A stretch of DNA of 38,012 nucleotides from a virus. The translations under genes and the position numbers were made by a program. The stretch lies in IMG/VR virus record IMGVR_UViG_3300035698_007535, positions 1-38,012 of that record; one strand, given 5' to 3'. Position 1 is the first letter of the stretch. Each line of letters begins with the position of its first letter. The notes under the pieces were generated by a model that saw nothing but the letters and a program-made list of their open reading frames with translations, was not told the origin of the DNA and did no database searches. Shown here one piece after another: positions 4,055 through 31,746 of this stretch.

Positions 4055-4672
4055 ATGCAAAACTCATGTAATATTATGACAGGCGACTGGTTCTTTAAGA
4101 AAAGAGATCCAAATAATACTAATGTGTTTTCAGAAAGCATATACCGATTCCAGAAATACAAGCGGTTAGTTCCAGAACCGTATTGCCAGTATACACACGT
4201 TGGCATAGTCAAAGACTTTCCTATCGGGGTACACTCGGTATTGGGGGGGAGTAACACTTTCAAAGCGCTATGGAAACGTGGCGGGGTTGAGCGTGTGGAC
4301 ATCACTAAGCGGTACGGAAAGGTTGACATATACCGCTATGCTGACTGGGCGGTTAATCAAGCGGCAAGCACTTGTATACGGCAGGACATGGTTGACTATC
4401 TTGACGACATGGTAGGCAAGGTACATTACGATATACTTTCAATAATAGCGTTTGAATTACCTATGGTAGCGCAGTATATAAAGCACCTTATTTTACGCAG
4501 ATACCCCGACTATGAATTTAATAGCGTGTTCTGCTCAGAGGGCGTACTTGATGCACAAGACCATGTAGGCATTGAATTATTCCACGGCTTAAAGAATGAA
4601 GTTATCGCCCCTGGGCAGGTCGCGGCACACAACCAGCTACTATTCATGGGTACATATCCCAACGTATTATAA
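4055..4672 (+). CDS. Permuted papain-fold hydrolase, YiiX/C92-like (amidase/endolysin candidate)
   Basis: The 205-residue product shows the circularly permuted NlpC/P60-type order seen in YaeF/YiiX (C92-like) proteins. These are an early GDW motif (residues 10-12), a His in YTHVGIV (H48), a Tyr-Asp pair in the middle (Y125-D126), and a late catalytic Cys in FCSEGV (C160-S161-E162). Family members cleave amide bonds in peptidoglycan peptides or lipid-linked substrates. Lying behind a holin candidate, it is the best endolysin candidate here, but no wall-binding domain is visible. The ribosome site (ACGGGTAG) is weak, so the start is less certain than the fold. Confidence 0.75.
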   Translation: MQNSCNIMTGDWFFKKRDPNNTNVFSESIYRFQKYKRLVPEPYCQYTHVGIVKDFPIGVHSVLGGSNTFKALWKRGGVERVDITKRYGKVDIYRYADWAVNQAASTCIRQDMVDYLDDMVGKVHYDILSIIAFELPMVAQYIKHLILRRYPDYEFNSVFCSEGVLDAQDHVGIELFHGLKNEVIAPGQVAAHNQLLFMGTYPNVL

Positions 4673-4688
4673 ACCACACAGAGCAACA

Positions 4689-6338
4689 ATGAAGCCCACA
4701 CCGACAGACATAAATGTGATATGCGAGGGGAGCGACACGCTACACGTGAACAAGCTCACCAACCTGCAGGGCAATCTAAAAGACTTGCCGGAGGAAAATT
4801 ATTACAAGCTACGAGCGTTGATAGAGTCAGAAGGCTTTGCTTATGTAGTGAGCGTTGCAAGATGTAACGGCAAGCTATTAGGCATACTGGACGGACACCA
4901 ACGGGTGTATACCATAAAGAAAATGCTCGAGGACGGGTTTAGTCTTGACCGAAATAAACTGCCCGTAGCATACGTTGACGTTGACGATGAGAAGCACGCA
5001 AAGCGGTTGATACTTGCCGCGGTGTCTCAATTTGGAAAAGTAAACCCAGAGGGGCTTGATGCATTCTTAGCCGAGGCAGAACTTGACCTAGAAGACCTTT
5101 CTAACTTTGACCTGCCGGATTTTGACGAAGAGGCTTTTCTTGAAGAAAGAATGGGTGATGCTCCCGAGGGGGACGGAGAAATGGAAAAGGGGTCGACGGG
5201 CGTGTTACGCAGGGACGGCTATTGCGCCTTTGCAATCCGCTTTGACATTTGTTCGGGTGTGTGTCCGCTTGGGTGTGTATATTGCTTCGCATCTGCTACA
5301 CCGGCGCTCAAACATTCGACAGGAGTACGACCGAAACGCAAGACCGTGATTCTAAACGCTCTCAGACAAGCAGAGGAATTTAAGATGGCAACAATAGGGT
5401 GCATGAACGACCCTTGCGTTGCAGGCGTCCACGATGAGCTTGTATACCTACTTGAAAACGCCCGTAAATTAGGCATACACCTAACGATGGCAACAAAGAA
5501 CCCTGCCATGCTTGCCAAGGTGATGAAAGAGCTTGAAACGCCACCGGAAATGATAGTTTGCAAAACAGCGTTTTCTATGATTGACGAGAAAAAGCGAAAA
5601 ATACTTGAACCTGCCTGCCCGTCGATCGCTAACAGAAAAGAAGCGCTCATGGAGCTTGATTCAATGGGCGTTGACGTTGTGCTACGTATGCAACCGCTAT
5701 TCCTTGGGTACTATGACGGATTCGAGAAGTTCTTTAAGGAAATGAGTTTTGCCAGTATAGTCAACGTGGAACCGTTCAAATGTTGTGCGCCAGGTATGCA
5801 GTACTTCAAAAGAGTTGAGCCGGCTTTGGATGAACCGCTACTTGACTATATAAGGCGTTGGTCGCCAAACGATGAAGTTGAAACAGAAATGGCAATGCAC
5901 TGGTATAAGACCGATAGAGTAAAGGTACACGCAGAGCTATTGAAAATAAAAGCAATGGTAGAAAAGAACAAAATGCAATTCGGTATCTGCAACGGCAATT
6001 TCGGTTATTATTCCGGTATGCTGAACAGCACTGATAATTTTTGTTGCCAGTGCAAAAGCCATAAGGACGCAGAGGTAAATTACGATAAAGACAGTATTTG
6101 TGTCCGTATAAAAGAAAAGCGTTTATACGAGGTGCAGGTTGATAGTTTGACCGACAAAGAACCGCAGAGCGAAGAGCTTGCACGCATTGAAACGGTGAGT
6201 AGCGCCGAGAATGTATGCAGGGGGTACAAAGACGATGTAATTGACATGAGCGAGCAAACACTTGCAAAAATGCAGAAAGAATACGATAATAGAGTTGCCG
6301 CACAGGAAAAAGACCAAGCAACGTCTGATGAAACTTAA
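4689..6338 (+). CDS. ParB-like domain fused to SplB-like radical SAM enzyme
   Basis: The product has 549 residues. Residues 10-115 form a ParB/sulfiredoxin-like domain with the signature LDGHQRVYTIKKM (68-80). An acidic linker (about 120-165) resembles the one joining ParB domains to DNA methylases in other phages. Residues 185-370 form a radical SAM domain with the cluster motif CPLGCVYC (C192, C196, C199), and with ATKNPAML and ILEPACPS segments as in SplB/spore-photoproduct-lyase-like proteins. Further Cys at 365, 366, 434, 452, 453 and 455 could bind a second Fe-S cluster. The likely activity is radical chemistry guided by a DNA- or nucleotide-binding domain; the substrate is unknown. I chose ATG 4689; an in-frame start at 4596 would overlap the previous gene. 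Confidence 0.88.
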   Translation: MKPTPTDINVICEGSDTLHVNKLTNLQGNLKDLPEENYYKLRALIESEGFAYVVSVARCNGKLLGILDGHQRVYTIKKMLEDGFSLDRNKLPVAYVDVDDEKHAKRLILAAVSQFGKVNPEGLDAFLAEAELDLEDLSNFDLPDFDEEAFLEERMGDAPEGDGEMEKGSTGVLRRDGYCAFAIRFDICSGVCPLGCVYCFASATPALKHSTGVRPKRKTVILNALRQAEEFKMATIGCMNDPCVAGVHDELVYLLENARKLGIHLTMATKNPAMLAKVMKELETPPEMIVCKTAFSMIDEKKRKILEPACPSIANRKEALMELDSMGVDVVLRMQPLFLGYYDGFEKFFKEMSFASIVNVEPFKCCAPGMQYFKRVEPALDEPLLDYIRRWSPNDEVETEMAMHWYKTDRVKVHAELLKIKAMVEKNKMQFGICNGNFGYYSGMLNSTDNFCCQCKSHKDAEVNYDKDSICVRIKEKRLYEVQVDSLTDKEPQSEELARIETVSSAENVCRGYKDDVIDMSEQTLAKMQKEYDNRVAAQEKDQATSDET

Positions 6339-6369
6339 TTTATAAACAACTAACAACATGAGGTGTATC

Positions 6370-6576
6370 ATGGCAGGATGGGGCGCAGGCGGTGGCGGTG
6401 GAAAACGATCTACCAAACGTGGCGGAGTAAAGCAGATTCGCGGTAATGTCAAATCATTGGCACGTGCCGGAGTTCGTGGCAAAACGCCGAGAATAAACGG
6501 ACGGCGATCTAAAGCGGCTACACGTGCGGCACTTAAAACGGCGGCACAATCAAGGCGTGGACGACGGTTTACCTAA
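6370..6576 (+). CDS. Small basic Gly-rich protein, copy 1 of a paralogous pair
   Basis: This 68-residue protein opens with MAGWGAGGGGG and continues as an Arg/Lys-rich, low-complexity chain with no acidic residues. The start is set by GAGGTG six bases upstream, and by the next gene, which shares the same leader and first codons. The composition fits a nucleic-acid-binding or DNA-condensing protein. Because it follows a radical SAM gene and has a paralog, a modified-peptide substrate is a second, speculative option. Confidence 0.75.
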   Translation: MAGWGAGGGGGKRSTKRGGVKQIRGNVKSLARAGVRGKTPRINGRRSKAATRAALKTAAQSRRGRRFT

Positions 6577-6638
6577 GCACACAGAGATAGAGCAACGACT
6601 GTATTTTTCTAATTAATACACAAACAAAGAGGTGTATC

Positions 6639-6863
6639 ATGGCAGGATGGGGTTCAGGCGGCGGTGGAGGTTCCACCAAACAGGCTGGGAGTGTATCTAC
6701 ACGTAAAGGAGTAAAAGGACACTGGGCTAAAGCAAAAGCTAAGAAAGTCAAAGTCTCCACATCACGGAATGCTACCAAAGCAGGCATCGGAACGAACAAG
6801 GCAGGGCGGCGTTCTACGCAGCTTGAAAACGCTCGATCCGGTAAATACGGCGGTTTCATGTAG
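6639..6863 (+). CDS. Small basic Gly-rich protein, copy 2 of a paralogous pair
   Basis: This 74-residue protein starts MAGWGSGGGGG and continues with Lys/Ser/Thr-rich sequence. It is clearly paralogous at the N-terminus to the preceding gene but has diverged behind it. The 5' leader GAGGTGTATC and the first eight codons are nearly identical in the two genes, showing a tandem duplication. A strong terminator follows 26 bases downstream, closing this transcription unit. The function is unknown; the charge suggests DNA or RNA binding. Confidence 0.75.
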   Translation: MAGWGSGGGGGSTKQAGSVSTRKGVKGHWAKAKAKKVKVSTSRNATKAGIGTNKAGRRSTQLENARSGKYGGFM

Positions 6864-6888
6864 GCTGATTAGCTTACAAACGCATTCC

Positions 6889-6922
6889 AAACCCTCTCAA
6901 TATCAGTATTGGGGGGGTTTTT
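6889..6922 (+). terminator. Rho-independent terminator after the radical SAM/basic-protein unit
   Basis: A 14-bp stem (6889-6902 with 6907-6920, two G-U pairs) closes a UCAG tetraloop. Its 3' arm ends in T residues that continue to 6922. It lies just downstream of the second basic-protein gene and marks the end of the late/lysis transcription unit. Confidence 0.9.
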
Positions 6923-6970
6923 CTATGCAATATCTACGATATAAACTGTGTCAAAATGTCCCAAATGAAC

Positions 6971-7004
6971 CTATGGGGTCGCTATGGGGTGGCTATGGGG
7001 GTGG
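6971..7004 (+). repeat. Three tandem 11-12 bp G-rich direct repeats (iteron-like)
   Basis: Copies start at 6971, 6982 and 6993, with the shared core CTATGGGG followed by TCG, TGG or GTGG. They border an AT-rich tract, the arrangement seen in iteron-type origins. The runs of four to five G could also support a G-quadruplex. No gene covers them convincingly. Confidence 0.75.
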
Positions 7005-7016
7005 TGGTCGGAACTG

Positions 7017-7260
7017 AATGGACATATATATATTATATTAATACTAGTATATATTTATTATAATAGGATATTCAATATTCAATATAAGGTTATATAAGAA
7101 TTATAATACTTGTATAGCTAGAACGGAATTAATATTATTTAAGTATTGAAATGTCAGAATAAAAATATAGAAATAAAAAATATTTGGTATGTCAAATATA
7201 TATGTAAATAAGTATTCTATTGCTTAAATTCTAAGGCGTTGTTATTGAAAAGCAATAGCA
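7017..7260 (+). other. AT-rich non-coding tract, candidate replication origin or unwinding region
   Basis: About 240 bases are made almost wholly of A and T, with alternating TATA runs, a duplicated ATTCAAT and no believable reading frame. The tract follows three tandem G-rich repeats and ends in a 9-bp inverted repeat. The whole 6923-7492 stretch shows no supported gene. A DNA unwinding element is a reasonable reading, but a purely regulatory or spacer role cannot be excluded. Confidence 0.45.
7217..7258 (+). repeat. 9-bp inverted repeat CTATTGCTT / AAGCAATAG
   Basis: Perfect arms at 7217-7225 and 7250-7258 enclose 24 bases. A further TTGCTATTG lies at about 7274. They sit at the edge of the AT-rich tract and may be protein-binding sites. 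Confidence 0.65.
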
Positions 7261-7340
7261 TTGTATACCTCACTTGCTATTGTGTCATGTGGGTATAGTC
7301 ACGGCTTCAGAATGACATACTATGGGTATACCAACCACAC

Positions 7341-7380
7341 AGCATACAGACAGCATACAGACAGAATACCAGTATACCAG
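7341..7380 (+). repeat. Tandem 11-bp repeat AGCATACAGAC and ATACCAG repeats
   Basis: AGCATACAGAC occurs twice head to tail (7341-7351, 7352-7362). AATACCAG and TATACCAG follow at once. A related TGTATACCAGTATA lies upstream of the promoter at 11736, so these may be regulator sites upstream of matched promoters. Confidence 0.65.
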
Positions 7381-7492
7381 TAACTGCGCTTGTAACTTGT
7401 TCTGAGCCAACGAGTTAACCGAAAAACCACCTCTCCAAAAAAATATATGTCGCTCTGCCGGAAGCACTTAAGGGTATGAAAGGAAAAAGTAT

Positions 7493-7521
7493 TTGACAGA
7501 GGTATAATACTATGGTATAAT
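7493..7521 (+). promoter_or_regulatory. Strong sigma-70-type promoter with operator-like dyad
   Basis: TTGACA (7493-7498) and TATAAT (7516-7521) are separated by exactly 17 bases, both matching consensus. The spacer holds ATAC-TATG-GTAT (7507-7518), a dyad that recurs in the promoters at 11736 and 13423. GGTATAATAC is also repeated directly at 7501 and 7514. It likely drives the early region to its right. Confidence 0.85.
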
Positions 7522-7533
7522 ACCATTATGCAG

Positions 7534-7550
7534 GGTGTGACAGACACACC
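7534..7550 (+). promoter_or_regulatory. Inverted repeat GGTGTG-N5-CACACC just after the promoter start
   Basis: Six-base arms at 7534-7539 and 7545-7550 lie within about 25 bases downstream of the expected transcription start. That position suits an operator or a small leader hairpin. Confidence 0.5.
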
Positions 7551-7582
7551 AGACAGTTATTTGACAAGTGAGAGAGTGTAGA

Positions 7583-7801
7583 ATGAAAGTAGAGGAGTGG
7601 GAGACTATGAGAATAGCCAGCCACCCTGCCACCCGAAAGTATAAGACAGAGTCCGCAAAGAATAGTGGAGGAGGTCGACCCAGTAAGTGCGTCAAAAAAT
7701 TGGGTGGAGCGAATGGGGTTATAAACTTTATAAGTAATTCAACCATAGTAAATGGCTCGCCAGCCTGTCTGAGTGGAAAGTTGTTTTTTTACTCATTATG
7801 A
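7583..7801 (+). CDS. Possible small protein behind the early promoter
   Basis: This open frame of 72 residues is the only one of note downstream of the promoter at 7493. The product is basic and Ser/Gly-rich with no recognisable domain. The ribosome site is poor (GAGTGTAGA), and the composition is not clearly that of a protein. It could instead be part of an untranslated early leader. Listed with low confidence because the transcript must carry something before 7979. Confidence 0.3.
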   Translation: MKVEEWETMRIASHPATRKYKTESAKNSGGGRPSKCVKKLGGANGVINFISNSTIVNGSPACLSGKLFFYSL

Positions 7802-7917
7802 AACAGGGACGCTACCGTAAAAAGTAATACACTCTATAATATAACCCATAGCGTTATATACTTGTAATAGTTTTTTGACAGTATAGCTTTTAGTCTCTAA
7901 ATGAAAAGTAGTCATTT

Positions 7918-7951
7918 ACTTACTCAGTATCGTATTGAGTAAGTGTATAAT
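7918..7951 (+). promoter_or_regulatory. 9-bp dyad ACTTACTCA/TGAGTAAGT next to a -10 box
   Basis: Perfect arms at 7918-7926 and 7936-7944 are followed directly by TATAAT (7946-7951). The following gene starts 28 bases on. No good -35 hexamer is seen at normal spacing, so this may be a regulated or activator-dependent promoter with the dyad as operator. A second TATAAT lies at 7835-7840. Confidence 0.55.
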
Positions 7952-7978
7952 ACAACCCTAATAAACAGGAGTAACATT

Positions 7979-8242
7979 ATGTCAAATGGCACAAAGACAA
8001 CAGCAGCAGCGATTTCAGTTCGGGTAAAAGATTGGACGACCGCAAAAGTACGGTCGGAGGATCCTCCCAAAGCTCTGAACCGGACACGTTTTACCGTCTC
8101 TCGCTCCTTTGTGGACGCGAACGATGAGGATGTTCTGGAAACTATTGCAACGTTCCGCTACCATAAGGACGCGGTGGCGAGTGCAAAAGCGATCGCGAAA
8201 GCGTGCGACCCGTCGACCGACATGGTCATTATAGACGGCTAA
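7979..8242 (+). CDS. Hypothetical early protein
   Basis: The product has 87 residues and starts at ATG 7979 behind AGGAG (7967-7971). It is mildly basic at the N-terminus and ends in DMVIIDG. I do not recognise it. It is the first firm gene after the control region and so is probably expressed early. A terminator-like hairpin follows its stop, so it may form its own short unit. Confidence 0.75.
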   Translation: MSNGTKTTAAAISVRVKDWTTAKVRSEDPPKALNRTRFTVSRSFVDANDEDVLETIATFRYHKDAVASAKAIAKACDPSTDMVIIDG

Positions 8243-8263
8243 AAATGCCTGCGCTTAGGGATA

Positions 8264-8297
8264 GTGCCTCGGGAAAGCAATTTTCCGAGGTACTTTT
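8264..8297 (+). terminator. Terminator-like hairpin after first early gene
   Basis: A 13-bp stem (8264-8276 with 8281-8293, G-U pairs included) encloses GCAA and is followed by TTTT. It resembles an intrinsic terminator with a short U-tract. Confidence 0.7.
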
Positions 8298-8322
8298 CAT
8301 TATTAAAAAAAAGGCGGATTTT

Positions 8323-8481
8323 ATGGAAAACAAGCAAAAAAACTACAAAAAAATTGAAACAGTGAACGATATTCGTGTCTACCTCAGAAATATATTGAGA
8401 ACCGAGGGAAACCCGAAAATCGCTCATAAAATAAATATAAATATACGACCTGAGGAGGTGGTGGACGAGTCGAGCCTGTAG
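8323..8481 (+). CDS. Small hypothetical protein (52 aa)
   Basis: The product is Lys- and Asn-rich at the start (MENKQKNYKKIE), then helical and charged, ending DESSL. A purine-rich AAAAAGGCGG lies eight bases before the ATG. An upstream extension to 8245 would run through a terminator-like hairpin and is unlikely. No family is recognised. It is one of a series of small genes in hairpin-bounded units. Confidence 0.6.
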   Translation: MENKQKNYKKIETVNDIRVYLRNILRTEGNPKIAHKININIRPEEVVDESSL

Positions 8482-8508
8482 TTGAAAAAATGCCCGATTT
8501 TTATAATG

Positions 8509-8526
8509 GGGAGCGTAAAAGCTCCC
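8509..8526 (+). terminator. Intergenic hairpin GGGAGC/GCTCCC
   Basis: Arms at 8509-8514 and 8521-8526 enclose GTAAAA. This is the first of a recurring GGGGAG/CTCCCC hairpin family placed after small genes here. There is no T-tract, so RNA end protection or processing is as likely as termination. Confidence 0.55.
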
Positions 8527-8574
8527 AACTACATAAACAGTATTGAGTGTGTAAATGGCTACTTTTTATAGTGA

Positions 8575-8608
8575 CTAATAGCGCAATAACTAGCACTTAG
8601 TTATAACC
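8575..8608 (+). promoter_or_regulatory. Recurring 34-bp element with ATAACTA-N5-TAGTTAT dyad (copy 1)
   Basis: The dyad is perfect (8586-8592 and 8598-8604). The whole 34-bp block recurs at 9359-9392 with 30 of 34 bases matching. It stands 20 bases before the next start codon, so it is a candidate operator or promoter for single-gene units. Confidence 0.65.
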
Positions 8609-8627
8609 TAAAAAACAGGATCCAAAA

Positions 8628-8885
8628 ATGAATTGGAACGAAACTTTAAAATCGTTGCTTGGGAGTATAGTAGGCGTGCTGTCGACTACTCCTTGGCTGA
8701 GTGTACAGGGACGTCTGAGATTTCAAGATGGAAAATATATGATATTTGTCGCAGAGACAACTGGCGCCCATGCTTCAGCGATATTTGCTCACGAAGAAGT
8801 TGACACGATTGAGCGGTACGGCGACGATAAACTCGTCAGAGCGTTTATAAGATTCGATTCAGGCACAAAATGTTGTACTGGGTAA
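8628..8885 (+). CDS. Hypothetical early protein (85 aa)
   Basis: The start is supported by AACAGGA eleven bases upstream. The product begins with a helical, partly hydrophobic stretch (ETLKSLLGSIVGVLS) and continues as alternating polar and hydrophobic residues suggesting beta strands. It ends in a Cys pair. No known family is recognised. Position among small hairpin-separated genes before an ArdC-type gene suggests an accessory anti-host or anti-defence role, by context only. Confidence 0.7.
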   Translation: MNWNETLKSLLGSIVGVLSTTPWLSVQGRLRFQDGKYMIFVAETTGAHASAIFAHEEVDTIERYGDDKLVRAFIRFDSGTKCCTG

Positions 8886-8891
8886 AACAAT

Positions 8892-8909
8892 GGGGAGTTT
8901 TTACTCCCC
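8892..8909 (+). terminator. Intergenic hairpin GGGGAGT/ACTCCCC
   Basis: Seven-base arms (8892-8898, 8903-8909) close a TTTT loop. It is the same hairpin family as at 8509 and 9288. The next ribosome site (CAGGAAA) starts ten bases later. Confidence 0.55.
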
Positions 8910-8930
8910 TACCAACAGCAGGAAACGATT

Positions 8931-9275
8931 ATGAATAAGGGATTGCAAAAAACGTATGAGTTATTCGCCAAGCAAACACTGTTAGCCCGATATGGAGAAC
9001 GGTGCGAGAAGTGGCGGATGAAAGCAAAAGATTTGGGTTTTGACGTCCACCAACTGGACATGATATTCGATGTCATGTTAGAACGGACGCACCACGACAA
9101 CGGTTCCGCACGATTTATTAATTGGAAAGAACCGATAAAGTGTTCGCTCCCCAAAGATTGTTGGCAGGTCGCCAAAGCAGCCTGCATATTCTTTCACGGG
9201 ATTTCACCGAAAGTAAAAAGCAATGCCGCCGATGACACAATAAAAATCACAACTGACGGATATTGTACATTTTAA
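8931..9275 (+). CDS. Hypothetical early protein (114 aa)
   Basis: The start follows AGCAGGAAACGATT, a leader identical in its last bases to that of the frameshifted gene at 9409. The product is mixed alpha/beta in character with several Cys, Trp and His residues but no recognised motif. It has no signal peptide or membrane span. The neighbours are equally unknown small genes, so an accessory early function is inferred. Confidence 0.7.
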   Translation: MNKGLQKTYELFAKQTLLARYGERCEKWRMKAKDLGFDVHQLDMIFDVMLERTHHDNGSARFINWKEPIKCSLPKDCWQVAKAACIFFHGISPKVKSNAADDTIKITTDGYCTF

Positions 9276-9280
9276 GGTTA

Positions 9281-9331
9281 CTGTTATGGGGGAGCCTAAA
9301 AAACTCCCCCCACCGATTGAGTGTAGGTTAT
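9281..9331 (+). repeat. 50-bp intergenic direct repeat, copy 1 (contains hairpin)
   Basis: This block matches 9562-9611 apart from one indel and one substitution. It contains a GGGGGAG/CTCCCCC hairpin (9288-9294, 9304-9310) and ends in GATTGAGTGTAGGTTAT. The two copies flank a broken gene. Bases 9331-9346 are also an inverted near-copy (15 of 16) of 8571-8586. Confidence 0.9.
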
Positions 9332-9358
9332 TGCGCTATTATTCACACCAACCAAAGG

Positions 9359-9392
9359 CTAGTAGTGCTATAACTATCACTTAGTTATAACC
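9359..9392 (+). promoter_or_regulatory. Recurring 34-bp element with ATAACTA-N5-TAGTTAT dyad (copy 2)
   Basis: The dyad arms are at 9370-9376 and 9382-9388. The element lies 17 bases before the next start codon, as its sister copy at 8575 does. Candidate operator or promoter. Confidence 0.65.
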
Positions 9393-9408
9393 AAAACAGG
9401 AAACGATT

Positions 9409-9556
9409 ATGAAAGCAAGCCTGTATTTCAACAGATGACTTCGGTAAATACCGCCGCCGGAAAATCAAGCAAGTAAATATATTGTTTGAAGCAATAGACG
9501 TTGATTTTGTAGATTTACCACTCAATACAAAAGGACACCTGACGATAATGTTGTAA
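9409..9556 (+). pseudogene. Small hypothetical gene broken by a frameshift
   Basis: A good ribosome site (CAGGAAACGATT) precedes ATG 9409, but the frame stops after nine codons at TGA 9436-9438. The +1 frame is open from there to TAA 9554-9556 and reads like a real protein (FGKYRRRKIKQV, then an acidic-hydrophobic end). Removing one base near 9433 would give one protein of about 48 residues. The site AGA-TGA-C could in principle be a leaky stop or frameshift site, but mutation or a sequence error is simpler. It lies between two copies of a 50-bp repeat, so the cassette may be decaying. Confidence 0.55.
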
Positions 9557-9561
9557 AAGTC

Positions 9562-9611
9562 CTGTTATGGGGGAGCCTAAAAAACTCCCCCGCCGATTGA
9601 GTGTAGGTTAT
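9562..9611 (+). repeat. 50-bp intergenic direct repeat, copy 2 (contains hairpin)
   Basis: This is the near-identical partner of 9281-9331. Its hairpin arms are at 9569-9575 and 9585-9591. Recombination between the copies would delete the broken gene between them. Confidence 0.9.
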
Positions 9612-9674
9612 AGCATTACTAGTCGTACTGATAGCATTCTTTTGCACTCTAAATAACAAACAGGAGATATGCAA

Positions 9675-10109
9675 ATGAATGTTAAATCATTTACAGAAAG
9701 ACTGCGTGGCATAGACGACGGCAACAAGTATCAGAGAGTAACAATAAAACTCCACATTTCCTTGTCTGACATAATAGATGAGGAAAAAAGCGAAACAAAC
9801 ATATACAAGGAATGCCGTTTAAGCCATATCATGTACAACCAATATTTGAAAAGGATGTATGCGGTATTTGTGAGAGTCGATAAGACTCTACCAGTAAGGC
9901 TTACGGTAAAAAGCATGGTTGATATGTTTGAGTATTTGAAACCCGATGCCGAAATATATTTTGTCGTGCAAGACAAAAAAGGGGCAGAAATCGAATGCGT
10001 TAAGTGGGGAGAATATGACGTATTGTTTCACCTTACAAACGAGGTGGAGATATGCAGAAATACGGACAAAGTAGATATGCTTTTGTCTACCGACCTAATG
10101 CCAGAGTAA
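9675..10109 (+). CDS. Hypothetical early protein (144 aa)
   Basis: AGGAG at 9662-9666 is eight bases from ATG 9675 and only two from an earlier ATG at 9669, so 9675 is preferred. The product is charged, with a predicted helical core around YLKRMYAVFVRVDK. No membrane segment or known motif is seen. It belongs to the run of small genes between the control region and the antirestriction gene. Confidence 0.75.
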   Translation: MNVKSFTERLRGIDDGNKYQRVTIKLHISLSDIIDEEKSETNIYKECRLSHIMYNQYLKRMYAVFVRVDKTLPVRLTVKSMVDMFEYLKPDAEIYFVVQDKKGAEIECVKWGEYDVLFHLTNEVEICRNTDKVDMLLSTDLMPE

Positions 10110-10507: not shown

Positions 10508-11432
10508 ATGAAAGTGTATGATATTATTCTAGAGCGTATAACCAAGCTCGTCAAAAAGACGGGTTTGATGCCCTGGCAACATGACTGGCGCACAGGCGGT
10601 TCTTGCATACCTTACAATTATAAGGAAATGCGAGAGTATAGCGGGATGAACATATTCCTACTCGCGGCTACTCAGATGGCAGAGGGTTGGGAGTTTCCGG
10701 CGTTCCTTACCGAGAAGCAAATTGCTGATATGGGCGGGAGCGTAAAGCCGGAGGATAAAGAAAATAAGGCATACACGCCAATATTCTTTTTCAAAAAGTC
10801 CCAATTTAAGGATGAACACGGTATAGTGCTAGACGAAAAAGGCAACCCAAAAACTTGCTGGATTCAAAGGTTTTTCCGTGTGTATAACATTGCACAGTGC
10901 GATGGAATACCAATGCCGAAAAGCACTGACGTCCCGATGGAACCGCTGAAAAAACCGGAAAAAGTTGTCAAAGGGTATACGGATTGTCCGGAAATTAAAA
11001 AGGGCAAACCGAGCTACTCACCCAAGACGGATGTTATTGAGTGTCCGCCACTTGCACAGTTCAAAACGCAAGAGGGATATTATTCTTCGCTGTTTCACGA
11101 AATGGTGCATAGTACAGGACACCCGACACGGATTGAGCGCCCCCTTAAAAGGCAGGTTCGATGTGGAGTCTTACAGCAAAGAAGAGTTGATAGCTACACT
11201 GGGTAGCTCGTTCTTGTGTGCAAGGTGCAAGATAGATAGCGCTGTAATAGAGAACCAAGCAGCGTACATTAAAGGATGGTTACAGCACTTGACGAACCAC
11301 CCGAAAGAAATTTCGATGGCGGCTAGCCAAGCTCAAAAAGCAGTAAGGTATATTCTCAAAGAAGAGCGTAAAAAGTACGTTCCGAAAGAGAAATCGAGTA
11401 AGTTGAAACGCAGTACTAAGGTGGCACGATGA
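10508..11432 (+). pseudogene. ardC: ArdC-type antirestriction protein (zincin), frameshifted
   Basis: The first frame gives an N-terminal ssDNA-binding-type domain (MPWQHDW, then YSGMNIFLLA) and the metallopeptidase motif HEMVHSTGH with its HExxH zinc site. It then loses the family pattern and stops at 11206. The family resumes in the +1 frame with GRFDVESYSKEELIATLGSS and a typical ArdC C-terminus to 11432, including the Glu expected as third zinc ligand. Removing one C from the CCCCC run at 11140-11144 restores a continuous 307-residue protein. ArdC proteins protect incoming DNA from restriction. The break may be a mutation, a sequence error, or +1 slippage on CCC-C. Confidence 0.85.
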
Positions 11433-21173: not shown

Positions 21174-22718
21174 ATGAATATCGAAACGAGTAAAATACGG
21201 AAATTAGGTGTCTGGCATTTAGAGCCGGCAAAAGTAGCTGATATGGCGTCCAGTATAGGTAAATTGGGGTTACAGCAACCAATAGGCATCGAGCATGACG
21301 AAGCCAATAAAACCTATTCTTTGCTGTGGGGCAATCACCGCCTTGAAGCAATTAAAAAACTGGGTATCAAGACGCTCAAAGATGAATGGTTCAGAATAAA
21401 GAAAACGGCTGACATTGAAAAGGCGGGTGGCGATCCTATACGGTCAATGCTACGGTATGTAGAAAATGCACACCGCAGGACAATGAAGCCGTGCGAAGAG
21501 TATCATATACTCTGTGAGCTTGACAGTTCAAGCATTGAGACGGCAGCAGGGATATTGAACAAAGACATAAAATGGGTGAAGCGTTTACTCAATTTGAAAA
21601 ACCTCGCTCCTAAATGGATGGCAGAGTTCAAGAATGAAAAAAACGAAAAGCCTATTGCGTTCTATGAAGCGTTAGCCGTTTATCCGTTAAGAGTGCAGGA
21701 GGCGGTAGACGTTCAAGCGGTAATGCACTATCATGCGGGTGCTTTGGTCGTATTCATGCAGAACAATTATGAGAATATACTGGACGAAGCAATATGGGCG
21801 CTCGATGCCAAAATAGAAAGCAAGTATGGCAAACTTGTTACCTGTGCCAAATGCACCGAAACGTCAGCTAATAGTGGCGACTTGTTTGACGATAATGACG
21901 GCGCCAACCGTTGCTTAAACCCTCTTTGTTGGGCAAAGAAGCGGGTTGAGACAATCAGAACAAAAATGGACGGAATGGACGAGAAGTACGGTAAAGGCAA
22001 GTGGCATTTGATTAGCTTGTATTTACCTGCTATTCTGAAACAGTTTGAAAGCATGGTAACACCTACCGACAGCTACATTACAATCGCTAAAAAAGACGGT
22101 GGGCTTCCGGCGCTGAATATCGGCACGGGACGTCAGGGAAAAATGACCGAGGGAAAAGTAACGTACATCAAACTTATTGAGAAGCAAACGCCCAAGCAGA
22201 AAGAAAAAGAAAAGGTGCGTGCCGAGTCTGGCGGGGATCCGGAAAAGGCAAGTCGGCTGACTGTACTGGCACAAATGCAAGCATACGACCGCAGACGGTA
22301 TCGGCTTATGTTAGGGTGGTTCATGGAAAAGGTAGTTGAGAAAAAGCTGACCAACATACCAGAGTTATCTACCCTGTTCAAAATGGCGCTAACTTTCGGA
22401 CTCGATGGAGTATCTTACACGGGAGTGCGTACCGCCGAAGCGCTACTTGTTTACGATGGTTACACGGCGCCCATGTTAGAAGAGGCAATAATGGAAAGCC
22501 TTTCAAACACCATTGACAATATGCGAAAAGAGTTCGGACACCCCAACAGCCCAACGCCAAAGGACATTGAGGGATTCAAACTCATGCTGTCATATTTTCA
22601 AGTAAACCATGACAAGATATACGCCAAAGCGGTAGCAGAAATACCAGACGCCAAAAAGTGGGCGCCATCAGCCAAGCTAATACGTGAAGAGCTTGACTTA
22701 AAAGCAACAAAGAAATAA
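21174..22718 (+). CDS. ParB/RepB-like protein with Cys-rich middle domain
   Basis: The 514-residue product starts with a ParB/Srx domain (signature LLWGNHRLEAIKKLG, 51-65). A KorB-type helical region follows (ENAHRRTMKPCEEYHIL, then AAGILNKDIKWVKRLLNL). A Cys block has CAKC (224-227), C247 and C252, and the C-terminal half is helical. The CxxC-plus-CLNPLCWAKK arrangement is known from plasmid and phage ParB-like proteins. Such proteins bind DNA, and some cut it or regulate transcription. No ParA is seen, so classical partition is not supported. AACAGGAG precedes the ATG. Confidence 0.82.
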   Translation: MNIETSKIRKLGVWHLEPAKVADMASSIGKLGLQQPIGIEHDEANKTYSLLWGNHRLEAIKKLGIKTLKDEWFRIKKTADIEKAGGDPIRSMLRYVENAHRRTMKPCEEYHILCELDSSSIETAAGILNKDIKWVKRLLNLKNLAPKWMAEFKNEKNEKPIAFYEALAVYPLRVQEAVDVQAVMHYHAGALVVFMQNNYENILDEAIWALDAKIESKYGKLVTCAKCTETSANSGDLFDDNDGANRCLNPLCWAKKRVETIRTKMDGMDEKYGKGKWHLISLYLPAILKQFESMVTPTDSYITIAKKDGGLPALNIGTGRQGKMTEGKVTYIKLIEKQTPKQKEKEKVRAESGGDPEKASRLTVLAQMQAYDRRRYRLMLGWFMEKVVEKKLTNIPELSTLFKMALTFGLDGVSYTGVRTAEALLVYDGYTAPMLEEAIMESLSNTIDNMRKEFGHPNSPTPKDIEGFKLMLSYFQVNHDKIYAKAVAEIPDAKKWAPSAKLIREELDLKATKK

Positions 22719-29491: not shown

Positions 29492-29672
29492 CATTGCGTG
29501 ACAGCCGTTGCTTGCTGTCTCCTGTGTGGTAGAGGTCAACTGTTGGGGAAATAATATTTATTCTATTTCGGTAGTTGAGTACCTATATCTCTGACAGTTG
29601 GCTTAACCAAAGTTAAACTATTGTATTAAACTCGTTTGCGTGTCAGCGACACAACTTAGGATTGGCAGAGCC

Positions 29673-30398
29673 ATGAATAAAAGACATAACCGTAGTACTA
29701 TATCAAAGGGAAATGGCAAAAAGGTCAAAAAGGGGCAACAAGCGGCAAGGAAGGTTAAATCCTCACGCGCTCGAAGCAAATTATTCTACCTTTTACCGGA
29801 TCATGCGGAGCTTATTTGTGAAACTATTGCGTCATTCAAATACACCAAAATGGCAGATATTGTCAAGCTGTGTATGGAAAAGTTTGTGGGCTACCCGTCC
29901 GGCAAGCCTGAATCGGCTATTAAACAATGGTGGAATGAAAAACTTTCAAAGAAATTTCCACGGGATAGTTACGGCAGGGTCACGGACGCTTGCAAATTCA
30001 AAGAGCGCATTGATGTCCTACGGGTTGAGTGGCGTGGCGGTCTTAAAGAGAAGTATAAACTTGCGAATGCTACTGGACGATTTGAAGAGCTTGAAAGAAT
30101 GTACTGGCTTGCAATGGAGGAAAGGGTTGTACGTATCGGGTCGTATAAGACTATTGAGGAGGTTCCTATTACTGACGCTGACGGTATCATTACAGGGTAT
30201 GAGCGCAGAGTTGCCTACAAGCCGTACCCCGTTAAAATGCGGGATATGCCGCTTGCCAAGTCAATACTCTGCGACCTTGCCCGTGAGTGCGGTGATCTCG
30301 ACAACAAAGAACCGCCACCAAACGGCGCCATTACATTCACTATTGTTAAGACCGATAAGAAGCATTGGCAAGAGGGAAACGCTAATGCCCATAGTTAA
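29673..30398 (+). CDS. Small terminase-like protein
   Basis: The 241-residue protein has a Lys/Arg-rich N-terminus. A helix-turn-helix-like part follows (CETIASFKYTKMADIVKLCM), then the segment KFKERIDVLRVEWRGGLKEKY typical of phage small-terminase-like proteins. It lies directly before, and overlaps by 14 bases, the large terminase gene. It should recognise phage DNA and regulate packaging. The start is uncertain: 29673 has AGGA twelve bases upstream, while GTG 29640 has no site. Confidence 0.75.
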   Translation: MNKRHNRSTISKGNGKKVKKGQQAARKVKSSRARSKLFYLLPDHAELICETIASFKYTKMADIVKLCMEKFVGYPSGKPESAIKQWWNEKLSKKFPRDSYGRVTDACKFKERIDVLRVEWRGGLKEKYKLANATGRFEELERMYWLAMEERVVRIGSYKTIEEVPITDADGIITGYERRVAYKPYPVKMRDMPLAKSILCDLARECGDLDNKEPPPNGAITFTIVKTDKKHWQEGNANAHS

Positions 30399-31746
30399 TC
30401 TTGATACCCAAGCCAAGTGCGACGACCGCCCGAAAGTAAGGGACTACAATATACCCTTGTACGACTATCAGCACGAAGCCTATGACCTACGGGACGTTGA
30501 CGGCAACAGCGCCTTTATTAAAGCGATTGTAGGTGGGTTCGGTAGCGGTAAAACGTATGCACTGGCGGTACGGGCAATACAGTTCTGCTTAGAGAATCCA
30601 GGTCTTTTCGGGGCGGTAGTCTCTCCCAACCTACCGATGGCTAAGAGAACCATTATACCTACAATGAAAGGTATTCTGAACGACTCAAAAATACCGTACT
30701 TCTTTCGGGCAAGCGACCATTATTTCTCAATCAACGGCGCTCAAATAGACATACTCTCTGGACACGACCCCGATAACCTAAAAGGACCGAATTACGGGTG
30801 GGGCGGTATAGACGAGCCGTTTATCCAGAAGCATGAAGTATTACAGTTCTTTCTCTCCCGCTTACGTGTGCCGCAATCAACCATGTTAGAGCTATTCCTC
30901 ACAGGGACGCCGGAACAGCTAAATTGGGGCTATGACATCTTGGAGGGTAAGGGTAAACTGCCGGACGCTAATTACATTAGGGTGAGTAGCCGTATCAACC
31001 TGCCTGAGAAAACATTGCAGGTACTATTGAATACGTACAGTGAGGAAATGGTGGCGTCATACATTGATGCTGGCTTTGTCATGCTGAACACCAAGGCGGT
31101 ATACTATAATTTCTCTCGTATCAACAATGTACGCAAGTTGAAATACCGTGCCGACTTGCCTATAATACTCTCATGTGATTTCAATAAAGCGCCTATGTGT
31201 TGGAACATAATACAGGAACACCCGACCGTCATTGAGCTTGCAGACCGCAGATGGCCGTACCTAGACACTCACGTAATAGACGAGCTACACATAGACGGCA
31301 CAAACACGCATGAATGTATCGAAGAGTTTATAGACAGGTACAAACGGCACAGGGGTAAATTTTTGGTTACGGGTGACTATTCCGGCAATGCCATATCGTC
31401 TACTATTGACACGGTGAGCAACTTTGACGTTATTATTAAAAAGCTACAACTCAAATTTGGATCTCATAGAGTAGGGCTGGAGCTTATGCCGAACCCGTTA
31501 AGAACGACACGGCACAGCCAAACGAATGCCGAGTTCTTGAATCACAAAGGCGAGACACATTTGTACATAGACGAGGAATGCACGCACACCATAGACGATT
31601 ACTCGTTTGCAAGCGTCAAGCCAGGTACGAGAGATATAGACAAGGGACACCATGACCCTCACCACTCAGACGCAGTTGATTACAGAGTTTGGTGGAAAAT
31701 AAACAATTCTGCTATTAATGTAACGGATGTAATAGGGGCGGCATAA
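30385..31746 (+). CDS. terL: Terminase large subunit
   Basis: The 453-residue product contains the ATPase motifs Walker A GGFGSGKT (50-57), Walker B ending in GGIDEP (D143, E144) and the coupling motif FLTGTPE (171-177). It also has the RNase H-like nuclease acidic residues in ILSCDFNKA (D265), VTGDYSG (D331) and DPHHSDAVDY near the end. It pumps DNA into the procapsid and cuts it. ATG 30385 follows AGAGGGAAA. A longer in-frame extension upstream only shadows the small terminase gene. Confidence 0.95.
   Translation: MPIVNLDTQAKCDDRPKVRDYNIPLYDYQHEAYDLRDVDGNSAFIKAIVGGFGSGKTYALAVRAIQFCLENPGLFGAVVSPNLPMAKRTIIPTMKGILNDSKIPYFFRASDHYFSINGAQIDILSGHDPDNLKGPNYGWGGIDEPFIQKHEVLQFFLSRLRVPQSTMLELFLTGTPEQLNWGYDILEGKGKLPDANYIRVSSRINLPEKTLQVLLNTYSEEMVASYIDAGFVMLNTKAVYYNFSRINNVRKLKYRADLPIILSCDFNKAPMCWNIIQEHPTVIELADRRWPYLDTHVIDELHIDGTNTHECIEEFIDRYKRHRGKFLVTGDYSGNAISSTIDTVSNFDVIIKKLQLKFGSHRVGLELMPNPLRTTRHSQTNAEFLNHKGETHLYIDEECTHTIDDYSFASVKPGTRDIDKGHHDPHHSDAVDYRVWWKINNSAINVTDVIGAA

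Follow-up and report, generated by a model that had tools for sequence, protein, structure and literature searches.

The window analysed here is a 38 kb stretch of viral DNA (positions 1 to 38,012 of IMG/VR virus record IMGVR_UViG_3300035698_007535, label G000) with genes for a terminase and a major capsid protein. On the plus strand it contains an open frame of 549 codons, the product of which consists of an N-terminal ParB-like domain and a C-terminal radical SAM (rSAM) domain joined by an acidic linker (Table 1). The start at 4689 is preferred over an in-frame ATG at 4596 because the upstream gene stops at 4672. Directly 3′ of the fusion gene lie two tandem short ORFs (6358–6576 and 6639–6863) with basic, Gly-rich products (MAGWG…GGGGG). 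A second, distinct ParB-like protein of 514 aa is encoded at 21174–22718 (Pfam ParB_N 0.0012; phrog_4715 5e-12). An ArdC-type anti-restriction protein is found at 10508–11432 (ArdcN 2e-18), with its metallopeptidase part split across two overlapping frames, which is likely a frameshift. The listed terminase ORF (29713–31746) shares its 5′ part with an ORF in a different frame (29640–30398); the large subunit itself probably begins near 30390.

Table 1. Features of the ParB–radical SAM fusion gene and its product in the window.
Feature	Position	Strand	Basis
ParB–radical SAM fusion protein, 549 aa	4689..6338	+	Open frame; full-length relatives L110 and L111; clade support 100/99
ParB/Srx (ParB-CTPase fold) domain with methylase-type C-terminal extension, residues 9-155	4713..5153	+	phrog_498 and phrog_620; fusion profile against ParB/Noc PDB chains; viral fold matches
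DGHQR motif, residues 68-72 (box II / phosphate-binding motif of the ParB fold)	4890..4904	+	Alignment of the fusions
Acidic low-confidence linker, residues 156-178	5154..5222	+	pLDDT < 50 over residues 141-178
C179, conserved Cys ~13 residues upstream of the core motif	5223..5225	+	Present in phage rSAM1 and most rSAM2
Radical SAM partial-barrel core, SPL-like fold, residues 179-345	5223..5723	+	AlphaFold2 core pLDDT > 90; Foldseek 4fhc
Radical SAM motif CPLGCVYC (C192, C196, C199)	5262..5285	+	Pfam Radical_SAM 2.4e-4; invariant in two alignments (A3, A5)
C434, C452, C453 and C455, which together with C179 may form an auxiliary Fe-S cluster site (inferred)	5988..6053	+	Cys pattern C…C…CC

The preliminary description of this locus, made from the sequence alone, had placed a ParB/Srx domain at the N-terminus, followed by a linker resembling that between ParB domains and phage methylases, and both assignments hold. 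Two profile matches cover residues 12-146: one to the N-terminal part of phrog_498 (‘DNA methyltransferase’, the ParB-DNA methyltransferase family; 7e-10), which extends through the acidic segment to residue 146, and one to phrog_620 (ParB; 9e-7). A profile of the three known fusions plus the relative L113 matches solved ParB/Noc chains at 3.6e-9. A Pfam search with the single window protein did not detect ParB, and the relative L110 matches ParB_N above cut-off (5.7e-10). Membership of the ParB fold is met by the sequence profile together with the fold of the N-terminal domain. The box II Gly/Arg motif required for NTP binding is present, with G69 and R72 invariant across the three fusions; NTP binding itself is inferred. 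The protein does not qualify as a partition ParB of the Spo0J/Noc type, as the ParB domain is followed by rSAM instead of an HTH and a dimerisation domain, and none of the scanned window ORFs was assigned to the ParA family.

The ParB domains of the relatives L110 (6.6e-19) and L078 (4.7e-24) match the N-terminus of the MTase_II model of PADLOC. As judged from these profile matches, the ParB of the fusion is the same subtype as that carried on phage DNA methylases. The fusions of ParB to a DNA methyltransferase known from phages (phrog_498; PADLOC MTase_II; PMC12704722) share with the window protein the N-terminal ParB-CTPase-type domain and its C-terminal extension, a phage origin and a nucleic-acid modification context. 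They differ in the catalytic domain, which is a Rossmann methyltransferase in place of radical SAM. Binding of CTP, ATP or GTP has been described for ParB-fold domains, some of those joined to SAM-dependent methyltransferases among them (PMC12704722).

The C-terminal part of the protein has the CxxxCxxC arrangement (C192/C196/C199) of the radical SAM superfamily. Pfam Radical_SAM matches residues 189-343 with 21.7 bits, short of the curated cut-off of 29.5 bits, and phrog_13321 matches residues 192-348 at 6.6e-7. The AlphaFold2 model of the fusion protein has a mean pLDDT of 70, rising above 90 in the cores. Searching solved structures with this model using Foldseek gives spore photoproduct lyase (SPL; SplB, 4fhc) as the top match (8.7e-7), and the matches among viral structures are rSAM proteins, ParB proteins and DNA methylases, including ParB methylases. 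Superfamily membership is met by the motif and by the structural matches to SPL and other rSAMs. Orthology to SPL by sequence is unmet: a PDB sequence search with the fusion protein or with a profile of rSAM1, one of two phage rSAM families distinguished here, found no match, and the fusion profile that matched ParB chains did not match those of SPL. The likeness to SPL rests on Foldseek alone. The radical SAM core and the SplB-like character read from the sequence beforehand are upheld, as are the six further C-terminal Cys residues (C434, C452, C453, C455, C471 and C510); the preliminary description proved right wherever its details could be checked.

The upstream Cys and the C-terminal CC pair occur in all sampled phage rSAM1 proteins and in most members of the second family, rSAM2, and are absent from the cellular SplB/PA0069-like relatives L139-L144. 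From the recurrence of this extra Cys set in phage rSAMs it is inferred that the set probably binds an auxiliary Fe-S cluster. A Tet_JBP domain was not matched by Pfam in the fusion protein, and only a functional analogy to TET/JBP is proposed below.

Relatives of the window protein were recovered only by alignment-based scans of IMG/VR; with the single protein as query, neither full-length tblastn against phages and plasmids nor an IMG/VR pattern scan returned any. These scans found two more full-length ParB-rSAM fusions, L110:5174-6997 (4e-42) and L111:3118-4704 (4e-40), and the presence of the same two-domain protein in two other phages shows that the architecture is not a product of chance. 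In a maximum-likelihood tree of the rSAM part the three fusions form one clade, the sister of which is L113 (support 99/95), where ParB (100-888) and rSAM (861-2039) are separate overlapping genes. A single fusion of a gene pair would be the simplest history. The ParB domains differ among the three fusions, which would allow for domain swapping. With branches as long as those of this tree, the support values overstate the certainty of the exact placement; the rSAM part of the window fusion shares at most 32% identity with its relatives. The opposite fusion order is seen in an unrelated phage, L006, where rSAM1 runs in one frame into a C-terminal ParB domain (7782-9389). A typical ParB start at the junction suggests that this fusion could have arisen by loss of a stop codon. 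Downstream of it lie a second ParB, a C5-methyltransferase and the terminase. Apart from one Cloacimonadota locus, a scan of genome contigs found nothing but distant SplB/PA0069-like proteins, and it gave no link to a host of the fusion.

The pairing of ParB and rSAM genes, defined as a ParB within 300 bp of an rSAM, was counted over 124 rSAM clusters at 90% identity. ParB lies downstream of rSAM1 in 37 clusters, with one more both downstream and fused, and upstream of rSAM2 in 12 clusters, with three more fused; the reverse order or the opposite strand was not seen in any of the 124. At 60% identity the counts are 4+1 for rSAM1-ParB and 12+3 for ParB-rSAM2. In both families the order of the fusion mirrors that of the genes. 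A ParB occurs within 300 bp of rSAM1 in 26/65 loci. Random placement within these short loci gives 14.4 ± 3.1, and the excess is only moderate because ParB genes cluster in the region. The strict side preference is a stronger argument for pairing than position shuffling. Part of the adjacency could reflect location, as ParB-type proteins are common near phage terminases. The loci are also a small set, mostly fragments, and partly chosen via ParB matches; the rSAM2 loci L112, L116 and L121, retrieved in this way, are biased. With ParB domains of relatives matching MTase_II, and ParB and rSAM adjacent or fused in many phages, the idea that the methylase has been replaced by a radical SAM enzyme stands. 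An association of ParB with rSAM was not found in the literature searched, which did not cover key hypermodification papers, and the main text of a 2025 survey of ParB folds (PMC12704722) contains neither ‘radical’ nor ‘photolyase’.

A survey of phage genomes for the fusion and its neighbours, as suggested in the preliminary description, returned the same fusion (L110, L111), the reverse order (L006) and neighbourhoods of hypermodification and terminase genes. The relatives often lie just upstream of the terminase, beside base-hypermodification genes. The order rSAM1-ParB-HMUDK-ADDT-rSAM2, with 5-hmdU DNA kinase (HMUDK) and amino acid:DNA transferase (ADDT), is found in L078, L079, L021, L083 and L114, and in the first two it continues with MetK, TerS and TerL. 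The L078 cassette is complete through MetK (5001-10058), and its phage-encoded SAM synthetase neighbours two radical enzymes that consume SAM. Other cassettes contain the TET-associated glycosyltransferase (TAGT): rSAM1-ParB-TAGT-rSAM2 in L071, a variant order in L014, a spread-out ParB with TAGT-rSAM2-MetK-rSAM1 in L041, rSAM1-ParB-TAGT without rSAM2 in L031, and ParB-TAGT-rSAM2-TerS-TerL in L132. The order in L116 is ParB-rSAM2-TerS-TerL, and in L110 and L111 the fused ParB-rSAM2 is followed by the terminase. A TAGT-rSAM2 fusion of 705 aa is encoded in L098 (6114-8228) and L100 (6606-8720), directly after ParB and before SAM synthetase; its TAGT domain is above the Pfam cut-off (5.6e-8). Pfam cut-offs are likewise exceeded by HMUDK of L083 (1.8e-6; weaker in L078), ADDT of L078 (6.5e-9) and L083 (2.2e-8), TAGT of L014 (2.1e-18), L041 (2.2e-14), L071, L132 and L098, and SAM synthetase (3e-11), present in L078 and L041, while for kinase-like genes in L010 and L021 the assignment rests solely on similarity to the L078 gene. 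C5-methyltransferases lie beside rSAM in several loci (e.g. L003, L037, L063) and 2.5 kb upstream in L110, where a radical SAM protein of a different type (619-1635) and a C5-cytosine methyltransferase (1858-2661) are encoded 5′ of the fusion.

No HMUDK, ADDT, TAGT, MetK or methyltransferase was found among the window ORFs scanned (the record may be incomplete). Because the window lacks partner genes and its fusion gene is not next to the terminase, the argument from neighbourhood rests on distant relatives. The DNA-modification reading may, by analogy, still be called well supported, and we consider it probable that the fusion is a phage DNA-base-modifying enzyme in which a ParB tether is combined with functionalisation of a pyrimidine near C5 to give a protective product. 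A defence role was rejected, as the window protein (P0001) matches no PADLOC defence model and the ParB domains of relatives match the methyltransferase model; the rSAM2 of L078 weakly matches RTasDUF1848 in PADLOC (0.006).

The preliminary description had proposed a new DNA modification or repair reaction guided by the ParB module. Modification is favoured by the hypermodification cassettes, and guidance by ParB remains an inference. Repair, in which a ParB-targeted SPL analogue would reverse thymine lesions in phage DNA, draws on SPL being the closest solved fold and on the weak relation of phrog_9252 (‘DNA repair photolyase’) to rSAM1. Modification is the likelier of the two, given that the relatives have hypermodification enzymes and terminase as neighbours and no repair genes. 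SplB itself belongs to sporulation and gives no significant sequence match, and the window protein adds to its fold a ParB domain, relatives in phage cassettes and the Cys set that is missing from cellular SplB-like L139-L144. With these differences we regard repair as improbable. A peptide or protein substrate (RiPP-like or a host protein), with ParB as an NTP-dependent regulator, is brought to mind by the two Gly-rich ORFs downstream and by the many auxiliary-cluster rSAMs that act on peptides. SPL, though, ranks above peptide maturases in the fold search. The RiPP-type substrate was rejected on the ground that no such ORFs are seen beside the L110 and L111 fusions, which are followed by terminase genes, and a peptide or protein substrate of any kind is very hard to credit.

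Phages with TET/JBP dioxygenases offer a comparison for the chemistry. The actinophages Wooper and Tonitrus carry ParB, TET/JBP, ADDT and 5-hmU DNA kinase genes ahead of the terminase, and the Tonitrus set has been published as a thymine hypermodification system (PMC11955845). In Phelemich genes 2 and 5 are TET and kinase homologues, with ParB and ADDT also present, and Kozie has TET, ADDT and kinase homologues with no ParB identified. The Wooper and Tonitrus cassettes resemble the rSAM cassettes in placing ParB and base-modification genes upstream of the terminase, and the actinophage ADDT is homologous to that of the rSAM cassettes (3.6e-16); they differ in having a TET/JBP dioxygenase in place of rSAM. 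Searches of Wooper, Phelemich, Tonitrus and Kozie yielded no rSAM belonging to these families. Pfam detected Tet_JBP in 0/35 rSAM records, and a more sensitive profile, built afterwards from actinophage TETs, found none in the window and 21 rSAM records; the positive control was detected in both searches. Thymidylate synthase or dUMP hydroxymethylase was found in 0/36 records including the window, with the control, Lysinibacillus phage LysYB1, detected. LysYB1 (L150, OP628075.1) itself carries a 639-aa ADDT-like gene with a kinase and thymidylate-synthase-type genes, and the 3′ half of its ADDT-like gene weakly matches the A6 profile (6.7e-6).

These distributions are suggestive of a swap between TET and rSAM, with the caveat that the records are fragmentary. 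The leading specific idea, as a particular form of the DNA-modification explanation, is that the phage rSAM stands in for TET/JBP without needing O2 and would oxidise or activate the 5-methyl of thymine or 5-methylcytosine in DNA, supplying the handle that TET or dUMP hydroxymethylase supplies elsewhere. Where ParB, ADDT and 5-hmdU kinase occur together, the phage has either TET (Wooper, Tonitrus, Phelemich) or rSAM (L078, L079, L021, L083, L114); TAGT, named for its link to TET, co-occurs with rSAM and no TET, and the nearest fold is that of SPL, which acts on thymine in DNA. Against this, a TET or hydroxymethylase could be missing from the assemblies, two rSAMs in some cassettes leave the handle-maker ambiguous, and rSAM2 may act after amino acid transfer, as is reported for phage M6. 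The window also lacks downstream enzymes, and an anaerobic lifestyle of the phages is only assumed. The idea can be held only tentatively.

The case of M6 also bears on whether the reaction is new. Lee et al. reportedly described in 2022 a SplB-like radical SAM isomerase in thymidine hypermodification of Pseudomonas phage M6, which we take to be gp53 (annotated as a DNA repair photolyase), and since such an enzyme would then already be known, the claim of a new reaction is unproven. Like the window protein, gp53 is a SplB-like rSAM in a setting of phage base hypermodification. It aligns by hhalign with both phage families (1.5e-10 against rSAM1, 2.2e-8 against the P0001/rSAM2 profile) and on this evidence is a real but distant relative of the phage rSAMs. 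It has no ParB domain, and M6 encodes a thymidylate-synthase-type gene, whereas the window has neither this nor downstream enzymes. The phage rSAMs could correspondingly be DNA-adduct isomerases that rearrange an amino acid already placed on thymidine by ADDT-type enzymes, as the position of rSAM2 directly after HMUDK-ADDT in L078, L083 and L114 would also fit. However, there would be no substrate for an isomerase in the window, L110, L111, L113 or L116, because no ADDT or kinase lies in reach there, and L041, L071, L098 and L132 pair rSAM2 with TAGT, not ADDT. On balance, an isomerase is rather unlikely.

To return to DNA-base modification, the ParB-like domain, as an NTP-dependent DNA-clamp or tether module, would most likely keep the enzyme bound to phage DNA until packaging. 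In the manner of SPL on thymine, the radical SAM domain would most likely direct a 5′-deoxyadenosyl radical at a DNA pyrimidine, at C5 or close to it. The computations establish the domains, the fold, the repeated pairing and fusion with ParB, and the hypermodification and terminase genes around the relatives, whereas a DNA substrate and the base and position attacked are inferences. The product is inferred to be protective and would shield the genome from restriction, alone in the window phage, and in related phages would be the handle for kinases, amino acid transferases or glycosyltransferases. That ParB-linked phage rSAMs are an oxygen-independent equivalent of TET/JBP on the 5-methyl of T or 5mC, with ParB as an NTP-driven DNA tether, is a possibility to which we would give less than even chances.

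Phage base hypermodification is known, and what is new, judged by the literature searched, is the pairing of ParB with rSAM. Very few enzymes, to our knowledge, use radical chemistry to alter intact DNA. An rSAM coupled to ParB would add a new branch to phage DNA modification and would help to explain the recurrence of ParB-like domains beside phage DNA-modifying enzymes. If it is indeed equivalent to TET, it would explain how base handles arise in phages without an oxygen-dependent TET, and would open a radical route to DNA hypermodification.
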